The notes beneath the pieces were generated by a model that did no database searches, was not told where the DNA came from, and was given only the letters and a program-made list of their open reading frames with translations. Source: Planctomycetota bacterium (GTDB lineage: Bacteria; Planctomycetota; Phycisphaerae; Phycisphaerales; UBA1924). From it: a stretch of 64,000 bases of DNA. Within the stretch, counting starts at the first letter, position 1. Each line of letters starts with the position of its first letter. The DNA lies in assembly GCA_018968885.1 (NCBI GenBank), contig JAGWZK010000002.1, positions 124,001-188,000 on the forward strand, given 5' to 3'. Made by a program: the position numbers and the translations under genes. Positions 46,515 to 49,634 of this stretch are shown one piece after another.

Positions 46515-47780
46515 TCACTCCCCCGTCGCCTTGAATGACACCAGCGGTTTCAGAATGCGTGTGATGGTGACGAGGTCGCGCTGGGCTTCCATGACGATGC
46601 GCAGATCGCGATAGACGCTTGGGGCTTCGTCCCGCATGGCTCTGGATCGAGCTTCGTCGAACGTGACATCCTTCATTTGCTGGCGGACATCTGTCTCAGA
46701 GACGTGGTGCCGCGCATCAGAGCGGGAGCGGGTGCGCCCCGCGCCATGTGAACTTGATGCGAGCGATGCGGATTCGCCTTTGCCCACAACGTGCACGCTC
46801 ATGGTCCCAGCCGAGCCGGGGATGAGGCCGACAGACCCGGCGTGGGCGGGCGCTGCACCTTTGCGATGAATGACCAGGTCCGAGCCGTTGTGCCCCTCGA
46901 TGGCGATGAAATTGTGTGGCACATCAAGAGTGCCTTTCCACGAGATACGGCCACCAATGACCTTTTGCACTGCCTCTGCCCCGGCGGCGAGCATCTGCAT
47001 GCGATTGGCGGTGGCATAGCGCACGCACCAGGTTTGATCAGCCAGGTACCCCACTGCTGCTTCTGAATCGCGGCGGAGACCGGCGATCATGGACCGCACG
47101 CCTTCGGCCTTGGCGACTCGGTCGTAGTAACCAGCAACGGCTTGACCCATGAAGCGCGAGCCGCTGTGCACCATGAGCCAGAGCGTGCCAGATTCATCGC
47201 GTTGCAACTCCACAAAGTGATTGCCTCGACCGAGTGTGCCGAGCTGTCCGACGCCATCGCCTGTGGCAAGTTTGCGCAGATGGGGTTGCACGAGATCTTG
47301 AGGATCGGGCATGTCTGCCGCTTGCACGGCATCGCGTTTGTGCGAGCGGCGAGCCACATCGATGGACCGATTGAACTCCTTGAGTATCGCTTCGCGATCA
47401 GCGAGACTTGGTTCATCGGTATCGGCGATGGCGATGGCACTCATGCCGCAGCCGATATCGCCGCCAATGGCGGCGGGATAGACGATTTCGGCGGTGCCGA
47501 GAACGCAGCCGACACAGACATCTGCCGCGGGATGCACATCGGGCATGATGGCCATGCGCTGCAGATCTGGCAAAGATTGCAGACGGATCAGGGCCTGGGC
47601 GGTGTGCACATCCAGCGGGCTGGCGAGCCACATGGCGACGCGAGCGTCGGCCTCGAGGGCGTGCTGCATCTCGTTGCGGGATTGGCTGCTGCGCTGGGTT
47701 TTCAGGGCGCGCCGCTCCCGCCGCGGCAGGACAGGGTCTGCATCATGATCTTGATCTGGATTCCATTTCCACGAACTCAT
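46515..47780 (-). CDS. rtcB: RNA ligase RtcB (3'-phosphate/5'-OH ligase)
   Basis: RtcB joins RNA 2',3'-cyclic-phosphate or 3'-phosphate ends to 5'-OH ends through a GMP-His intermediate, and in bacteria serves RNA repair. The 421-aa protein has MPDVHPAADVCVG, GGDIGCGM (metal-binding Asp and Cys), GRGNHFVELQ, MVHSGSRFMG and SSHGAGRTRSR with the guanylylated His, so all key residues are present. Its ATG overlaps the stop of the upstream RbfA-like gene by 4 bp (ATGA), indicating translational coupling. No RtcA or PrfH gene is adjacent. Confidence 0.95.
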   Translation of the reverse strand: MSSWKWNPDQDHDADPVLPRRERRALKTQRSSQSRNEMQHALEADARVAMWLASPLDVHTAQALIRLQSLPDLQRMAIMPDVHPAADVCVGCVLGTAEIVYPAAIGGDIGCGMSAIAIADTDEPSLADREAILKEFNRSIDVARRSHKRDAVQAADMPDPQDLVQPHLRKLATGDGVGQLGTLGRGNHFVELQRDESGTLWLMVHSGSRFMGQAVAGYYDRVAKAEGVRSMIAGLRRDSEAAVGYLADQTWCVRYATANRMQMLAAGAEAVQKVIGGRISWKGTLDVPHNFIAIEGHNGSDLVIHRKGAAPAHAGSVGLIPGSAGTMSVHVVGKGESASLASSSHGAGRTRSRSDARHHVSETDVRQQMKDVTFDEARSRAMRDEAPSVYRDLRIVMEAQRDLVTITRILKPLVSFKATGE

Positions 47781-48250
47781 TGGTGTTCTCCAACTGGGCT
47801 ATCTGTCTGGCCTTGCGATTGGCGCTCGATTGCTGGCGCATCTGCTGCGAAGACGAGCTTCAAGGTGGGGACACGCTTGCGTGCGAGGACGGCACCGAGG
47901 CGGACACGCAGGAAAGGCGCGAAGGCCTGCAACCAGCGTTCGACACTGGATGGGTCGTCGGGGTGCTGAAGCGATGACACCCATGCGCGCACATGCGCAC
48001 CGCTGGCACTGACCTCGATGTGTGAGACACCGAGATCGCAGCCGATGCTGGAAGCGCGGCTGGCGAGTTCCTGGTCGATCACGCGGGCGGCTTGTTTGGC
48101 CAAGGCCTGATCGCGATAGTTGGTGCGCTCGGCACGTTCGCGGTTCTCCTTCTGCCGCTCTTTGAGCGACTCTTCGCGAGGATTGATTCCGTCACCTTCC
48201 TGTATCTGTGTGCATTGATCACACAGTTCATCATTTCGAAACGATTTCAT
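47777..48250 (-). CDS. RbfA-like ribosome-binding protein, coupled to rtcB
   Basis: The 157-aa protein has an RbfA-type KH domain at about residues 50-145: RVIDQELASRASSIG, LGVSHIEVSASGAHVRAWVSSL, WLQAFAPFLRVRLGAVLARKRVPTLKLVFAAD. This matches the order of RbfA strands and helices (IEVSxDxxxAxVYVS, AxxFIRxxLxxxLxxRxxPxLxFxxD). RbfA binds 16S rRNA in 30S maturation. The N-terminus is atypical, with CDQC (residues 10-13) and a Lys/Arg/Glu-rich helix. It may be a paralogue specialised for RtcB, or the cell's only RbfA. A GGGAAAGAAG lies just before ATG 48250. Confidence 0.75.
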   Translation of the reverse strand: MKSFRNDELCDQCTQIQEGDGINPREESLKERQKENRERAERTNYRDQALAKQAARVIDQELASRASSIGCDLGVSHIEVSASGAHVRAWVSSLQHPDDPSSVERWLQAFAPFLRVRLGAVLARKRVPTLKLVFAADAPAIERQSQGQTDSPVGEHQ

Positions 48251-48720: not shown

Positions 48721-48794
48721 GCCCTTTGTGTAGAAAAGTCGCGAAGAACGGTGCAAGCCGATGCGCATGGCCAATCGCAGTTATGCTGCGCGAT

Positions 48795-49634
48795 ATGCAT
48801 CCATTTCTGATGATCTTCGCGGCGACGATTCCGGCACTTCTGATCGGCACTGCGATCTTGCACCTGTTGCCACGGCTGGGTTCACCGGGGCGGGCGATGT
48901 CGGAGCGGCTGTGTCGCGCACCGGGGCTGGATGCGATGGTGACCTACTTCACCATGCTGCCATTGATCGCGGGGCCGATCGTCACAGCGCGGGTGAGCGA
49001 TGTGGAGTACGCCGGGTTGTTTGGATTTCTGGGCGCGTACATCGGGCAGCTGACGGCGATTGTGTTGTGGAGCTGGATACACGAGGCGGCGAATCGTGAG
49101 AAACTGCGTGGACCGCGAATTGTGGGTGTGCTGAATCAGAAGATCGGCCGCGTGCGCAATCATGTCGGGCTTTGGGTGATGAGTGTGGCAGTGCCGGTCT
49201 TCTGGATCGTGCGCGCGTGCGAAATTTTGACGTGGCCACTCATCAGTCGCATTTGCAACATGCCCAGATACAACGAAGGGGAATGGGTGAACTGCTCGCG
49301 GCAGAAGTTTGATGGGCTGGTCGGGCACGATCTGATCTGGTGCCTGTATTGCGACTGGATGACGGGTGTGTGGTCGCTGGGGACGGAGATGCTGCGGAAC
49401 ATCGAGAGCTTCTATTGCCCGATCCGCTTCTATCACGACAAGAAGTGCGAGAACTGCAAGATCGATTTCCCGGATGCGAATGTATGGGTGCCGGCGAATG
49501 GGACCATGAAGGATGTGACGGATCTGCTCGACGCGGCGTACGACGGCAAGAACAACACATGGATGGGTCACCCGGCACGGACGGCGACCGTGACGGTGAA
49601 TGGGAAGGAGATCAAGGTGATGCCGAAGGAGTGA
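48795..49634 (+). CDS. Membrane protein with C-terminal Cys cluster, unknown function
   Basis: The 279-aa protein (ATG 48795, MHPFLMIF; ATG 48783 also in frame) has three or four hydrophobic helices in its first 130 residues (LMIFAATIPALLIGTAILHLL; VTYFTMLPLIAGPIVTA; YIGQLTAIVLWSWI; VGLWVMSVAVPVFWIV). A cytoplasmic-looking region follows with CSRQKFDGLVGHDLIWCLYCDWMTG and CPIRFYHDKKCENCKIDF, a likely metal-binding site, then a short soluble tail. No family is recognised. It is convergent with rimO, with 22 bp between stops. Confidence 0.7.
   Translation: MHPFLMIFAATIPALLIGTAILHLLPRLGSPGRAMSERLCRAPGLDAMVTYFTMLPLIAGPIVTARVSDVEYAGLFGFLGAYIGQLTAIVLWSWIHEAANREKLRGPRIVGVLNQKIGRVRNHVGLWVMSVAVPVFWIVRACEILTWPLISRICNMPRYNEGEWVNCSRQKFDGLVGHDLIWCLYCDWMTGVWSLGTEMLRNIESFYCPIRFYHDKKCENCKIDFPDANVWVPANGTMKDVTDLLDAAYDGKNNTWMGHPARTATVTVNGKEIKVMPKE

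Follow-up and report, generated by a model that had tools for sequence, protein, structure and literature searches.

Why should the gene of a protein that resembles the 30S ribosome-binding factor A (RbfA) overlap the gene of an RNA ligase of the RtcB type? The question is raised by two genes within a stretch of 64,000 nucleotides from a member of the Planctomycetota (contig JAGWZK010000002.1, positions 124,001 to 188,000; hereafter, the window). The original prediction, made from the sequence alone, had proposed that the two genes form a 30S-directed RNA-repair module, with a ribosome maturation factor in place of PrfH. The first part of that proposal, namely, an RbfA-type KH protein whose gene overlaps rtcB by 4 bp, was confirmed by the ATGA sequence at the junction, by the matches to PF02033 and PF01139, and by profile and top fold matches of the smaller protein (here called RbfL) to RbfA only. 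The coordinates of the pair and of two further features are given in Table 1.

Table 1. The rbfL-rtcB pair and accompanying features in the window
Feature	Position	Strand	Product or role	Evidence
rbfL	47777..48250	(-)	157 aa, RbfA-like KH-type-II protein	PF02033, profile search of PDB sequences, AlphaFold2, Foldseek
rtcB paralog	46515..47780	(-)	421 aa	PF01139, alignment to E. coli RtcB, RtcB tree
ATGA, 4 bp shared by the rbfL stop and the rtcB start	47777..47780	(-)	translational coupling	
First codons of rtcB	47646..47780	(-)	basic N-terminal extension, about 40 to 45 residues	
ORF	48726..49634	(+)	302 aa	

The two genes stand alone, since the gene downstream of them, encoding a DeoC/LacD aldolase, is convergent and the open reading frame (ORF) upstream is divergent. 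A larger operon was considered and rejected, as the genes flanking the homologous loci are randomly oriented and close neighbors are few. No RtcA cyclase gene is adjacent to the pair, whose neighbors are the aldolase gene and an ORF with no assigned family, and searches for defense systems and RNA families gave no match. The 302-aa ORF listed in Table 1 has a hydrophobic start and a CENCKID motif, and neither Pfam (above cut-off) nor PADLOC gave a match for it.

Both genes are paralogs of copies located elsewhere in the genome, because a separate canonical rbfA, for which the original prediction had suggested a search, is found after infB on contig C50 (78 bits against PF02033), and a second rtcB lies on contig C19 (346 bits against PF01139, with approximately 26 to 28% identity to the RtcB of the window). 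The possibility that rbfL is the sole rbfA of the genome was therefore discarded. On C19 (locus L003), the second rtcB (1309-2856) follows the gene of a Ro60-type vWA protein (1-1038), an association with RtcB that is a known RNA-repair context, and two different RtcB operons are thus found in one small genome. Ro60(Rsr)-RtcB operons resemble the pair of the window in that RtcB is tied to an RNA-binding partner, but both the RtcB clade and the partner are different.

The RtcB of the pair matches PF01139 with 243.4 bits (cut-off, 27) and conserves the catalytic residues D108, C111, N187, H188, E191, H205, H289, H345, R349, and K417. In particular, residues D75, C78, N167, H168, H185, H281, and H337 of E. 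coli RtcB, which are the Mn-binding and guanylylated His residues, all have an aligned and identical counterpart, so that the ligase active site is intact and ligase activity is predicted. The score against TIGR03073 is 143.8, below the cut-off of 271.8. The basic N-terminal extension encoded by the first codons of rtcB is absent from 10 of 10 aligned relatives.

As for RbfL, its matches to the RbfA models of Pfam (PF02033, 25.7 bits, E value of 1.4e-5) and TIGR (TIGR00082, 20.6) fall under the respective cut-offs of 34.7 (curated) and 51.15, and its gene is flanked by rtcB and the divergent ORF rather than by infB or truB. At the level of sequence, the kinship to RbfA becomes secure once a profile of the RbfL family is used, the seven matches of which among PDB sequences are all RbfA (best E value, 2.9e-8). 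Moreover, the AlphaFold2 model of RbfL (pLDDT of 84.7, with values above 90 in the core) retrieved exclusively RbfA chains among the top 20 Foldseek matches. In the model, a disordered N-terminal extension (residues 1 to 23) is followed by a KH core (residues 24 to 134), with helices at 24-69 and 100-122 and strands at 73-80, 86-93, and 129-134, and then by a disordered tail. RbfL shares with RbfA the KH-II fold and the R...R-x-x-P-x-L core and yet stands outside canonical RbfA, from which it differs in scoring below the Pfam and TIGR00082 cut-offs, in having an additional N terminus, and in missing the C-terminal helix that in RbfA touches S7. The tree suggested for checking the original prediction agrees with this placement, as it separates canonical RbfA from all RbfLs, the divergent form of family f53 among them, and gives this division 100% support; within this tree, the internal relations are poorly resolved, and the RbfL of the window is a long branch.

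Most RbfLs paired with RtcB present, in their N-terminal extension, a motif of the D-x-D-P-x-x-F type flanked by basic stretches, the version of the window being EGDGINPR. Loose patterns recover this motif in 57 to 65 of 78 paired RbfLs, so that it is not universal, and it is absent in 10 of 11 short RbfL paralogs that do not adjoin rtcB, a distribution that makes it a candidate docking site for RtcB. The basic N terminus pointed out in the original prediction is real, whereas the CDQC motif reported with it, present in the RbfL of the window, is private to this genome; a zinc site was rejected, since a CxxC occurs in none of the 78 paired relatives.

Further along the protein, a basic loop of the R-[RK]-[RK]-x-P type between alpha3 and beta3 was detected with a loose pattern in 78 of 78 RbfLs, and the signature of canonical RbfA, G-x-L-R ... 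P-x-L-x-F, is mostly retained. The Gly of the AxG kink (G-x-L-R) is kept in 52 of 78 RbfLs, the one of the window not being among them, and the Arg of the Asp-Pro-Arg between alpha1 and beta1 is lost. Two of the contacts that RbfA makes with the 3' end of the 16S rRNA, those of the DPR Arg and of the AxG kink, seem to be altered, which counts against a reading centered on the ribosome, as does the missing C-terminal helix. It is possible to hypothesize that RbfL works off the ribosome, as a general RNA-binding KH adaptor presenting other broken RNAs (tRNA, mRNA, or phage RNA) to RtcB; in addition to the partial change of the contact residues, the KH fold binds many RNAs, and the conserved basic loop would suit RNA generally. 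We consider this hypothesis doubtful, though worth weighing, as both the profile and the top fold matches lead to RbfA and to no other KH family and as most of the canonical signature has been kept.

The pairing itself is conserved well beyond close relatives. Among 392 genomes of Planctomycetota, the RbfL family profile gave 35 matches of at least 79 bits, separated by a gap from canonical rbfA (at most 47), and a profile of the partner RtcB gave 11 matches at 539 to 615 bits and 3 at 388 to 408, with a gap down to 330. An RbfA-fold gene lies directly upstream of the rtcB in 14 of the 14 cases belonging to this branch and in none of the 16 next-best RtcBs examined, which represent the neighboring branch. 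The pair is patchy in its occurrence (14/392 Planctomycetota genomes): of ten sampled genomes of its family, only that of the window has it, and it is present in about ten other families.

When 84,980 species genomes (GTDB species) were scanned and the best 80 loci taken, the pair extended to other phyla, with 33 loci in Planctomycetota, 27 in Myxococcota, 9 in Acidobacteriota, 4 in Pseudomonadota, and 2 in Nitrospirota; the phylum was not assigned for the other 5, one of which is titled Riflebacteria. RbfL precedes rtcB in 78 of these best 80 loci; of the other two, one has an assembly gap (locus L127, rejected as a true exception, since an N-run precedes its rtcB) and one lies at the end of a contig. 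Overlapping frames are seen in 75 of the 78 loci, the overlap being 4 bp long in 51 and 8 to 17 bp long in 24. Furthermore, in a separate sample of Myxococcota, RtcBs of the branch were paired with RbfL in four cases out of four; the resulting prevalence of 4/189 is a lower bound, because this first look under-samples large genomes and missed a Sorangium genome that bears the pair. Chance as the cause of the pairing is excluded by its conservation, the pair being present in every one of the 78 assembled loci, which span at least five phyla, and a local accident was likewise discarded, given the conservation in other families of Planctomycetota and in other phyla. A separate canonical rbfA was found in 15 of 18 genomes with the pair, the other three being draft genomes. 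The presence of a second, canonical rbfA and the reach of the pairing argue, in line with the original prediction, that the pair is a dedicated module, combining RtcB with an RbfA-type protein that would bind the 30S subunit.

The part of that prediction concerning descent was not supported. In a tree of 67 RtcB rows, the RbfL-linked RtcBs form one clade (SH-aLRT of 98), to which the E. coli-type RtcB is sister (100), whereas the RtcB2 proteins linked to PrfH form a separate clade (100), so that RbfL would not have taken the place of PrfH by descent. The assignment of the RtcB of the window to the PrfH-type RtcB2, to which its NCBIfam matches would lead, was rejected on the basis of the same tree; those matches reflect only the set of models available in NCBIfam. 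Rows from planctomycetes, myxobacteria, and Beggiatoa-type organisms are intermingled within the RbfL-linked clade, and this disregard of the gene tree for phyla suggests that the pair spread by transfer. The distance matrices of RbfL and RtcB for 78 pairs are correlated (Mantel r of 0.75, with 0 of 2,000 permutations as high), an agreement that fits a jointly inherited unit, as expected, and that in part reflects common ancestry.

Archaeal pre-rRNA circularization is carried out by RtcB, and a programmed cut in the pre-16S rRNA could be imagined as the substrate here too, with the pair serving 30S maturation instead of the repair of damage. RbfL is the paralog of a biogenesis factor, and RbfA itself matures 16S rRNA (PMC8201178); nevertheless, the very patchy distribution of the pair, both in the phylum and in the family of the window genome, and the mixing of phyla in the gene tree are unlike a housekeeping step, and canonical rbfA is present besides, which makes this explanation quite unlikely.

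RbfL is also encountered without RtcB. Many Planctomycetota have short RbfL paralogs of about 100 to 140 aa (L054, L059, L062, L064 to L066, L071, L072, L078, and L080), with neither the N-terminal motif, nor an rtcB nearby, nor a steady neighbor, from which it follows that RbfL can act without RtcB. Long-form RbfLs with a DDGxDPR-type motif occur in L050 (5998-6486), L056 (6037-6474), and L079 (5650-6414), where rtcB is absent within approximately 6 kb. Their genomes yielded no RtcB of the branch either, and these RbfLs possibly represent remnants or users of another partner. The existence of unlinked short paralogs could suggest that RbfL only regulates, or is merely co-expressed with, a tRNA-only RtcB with which it has no physical partnership, but this is very improbable, since co-expression alone hardly explains the overlapping frames, the pairing in every assembled locus across at least five phyla, and the correlated divergence of the partners.

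Among known systems, the RtcB2-PrfH operon (TIGR03073/TIGR03072; E. coli ATCC 25922) is likewise a two-gene RNA-repair operon combining RtcB with a ribosome-binding partner, with a 4-bp overlap (rtcB2/prfH, at 2887-2890 of L196) and a patchy spread suggesting transfer; different from the RbfL pair, the partner is a release factor, rtcB comes first, and the RtcB is of a separate clade. PrfH scored above cut-off in only 3 of the 392 Planctomycetota genomes, that of the window not being one of them. One planctomycete genome (G056) has both systems, with a PrfH gene over cut-off and RtcB2 (L200) and a divergent RbfL-RtcB pair (L097). E. coli RtcAB (RtcR regulon) provides the nearest RtcB clade, with the same catalytic residues and approximately 32 to 38% identity; however, the RbfL pair has no adjacent RtcA cyclase and has a near-obligate RbfL, whereas E. 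coli rtcB has no RbfA neighbor.

RbfA sits on the neck of the 30S subunit, with the KH face on the 3' end of the 16S rRNA and its loops between h28, h44, and h45 (PMC9917171; PMC8201178). Colicin E3 cuts the 16S rRNA between A1493 and G1494, and RtcB2 with PrfH reseals it at the decoding center (PMC9223846); E. coli RtcB reseals 16S rRNA after MazF has removed the anti-Shine-Dalgarno tail (PMC13247085). The RbfA site thus coincides with, or adjoins, the 16S rRNA breaks that RtcB enzymes reseal, and the most plausible role of RbfL is to target RtcB for the repair of 16S rRNA. We propose, with a probability of about 0.6, that the pair is a stand-alone RNA-repair bicistron, in which RbfL targets a dedicated RtcB to the 30S subunit to reseal cleaved 16S rRNA. 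On this view, RbfL would have arisen long ago as a paralog of RbfA, a factor of 30S assembly, and have been taken on to target an RtcB 3'-5' RNA ligase of its own. We infer that RbfL would bind the 30S subunit at the RbfA site (the neck, at the junction of h28, h44, and h45 and the 3' end of the 16S rRNA), that RtcB would be kept at this site by the extended N terminus of RbfL, in which basic stretches flank the D-x-D-P-x-x-F-type motif, and that RtcB would reseal breaks with 2',3'-cyclic-phosphate and 5'-OH ends in the 3' minor domain of the 16S rRNA. Candidate breaks are colicin E3-type cuts at the decoding center and MazF-type removal of the anti-Shine-Dalgarno tail. It is on balance probable, if by little, that 30S repair independent of PrfH exists in this form, with an RbfA paralog steering its own branch of RtcB to breaks at the decoding center and 3' end of the 16S rRNA and with transfer among at least five phyla.

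The ribosome link of this RtcB clade would be an independent recruitment relative to RtcB2-PrfH, because the paired RtcBs belong to another clade than RtcB2 and are nearest to the E. coli-type RtcB. Our literature search found no paper connecting RtcB with RbfA; the main survey of RNA-repair operons was outside its reach, so that the RtcB repair operon described here, with a partner that appears to be unreported, may have been mentioned earlier. Two genes are characterized that are overlooked by current models or receive only a general label, RbfL being under the RbfA cut-offs of both Pfam and TIGR. If the proposed reading is true, the pair would represent a second, evolutionarily independent instance of an RNA ligase coupled to the ribosome in bacteria, and we know of no earlier case of a ribosome assembly factor serving as a repair adaptor. 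It would also offer a concrete two-protein system with which to ask which ribosome breaks are mended by Planctomycetes, Myxobacteria, and the other bacteria that carry it.
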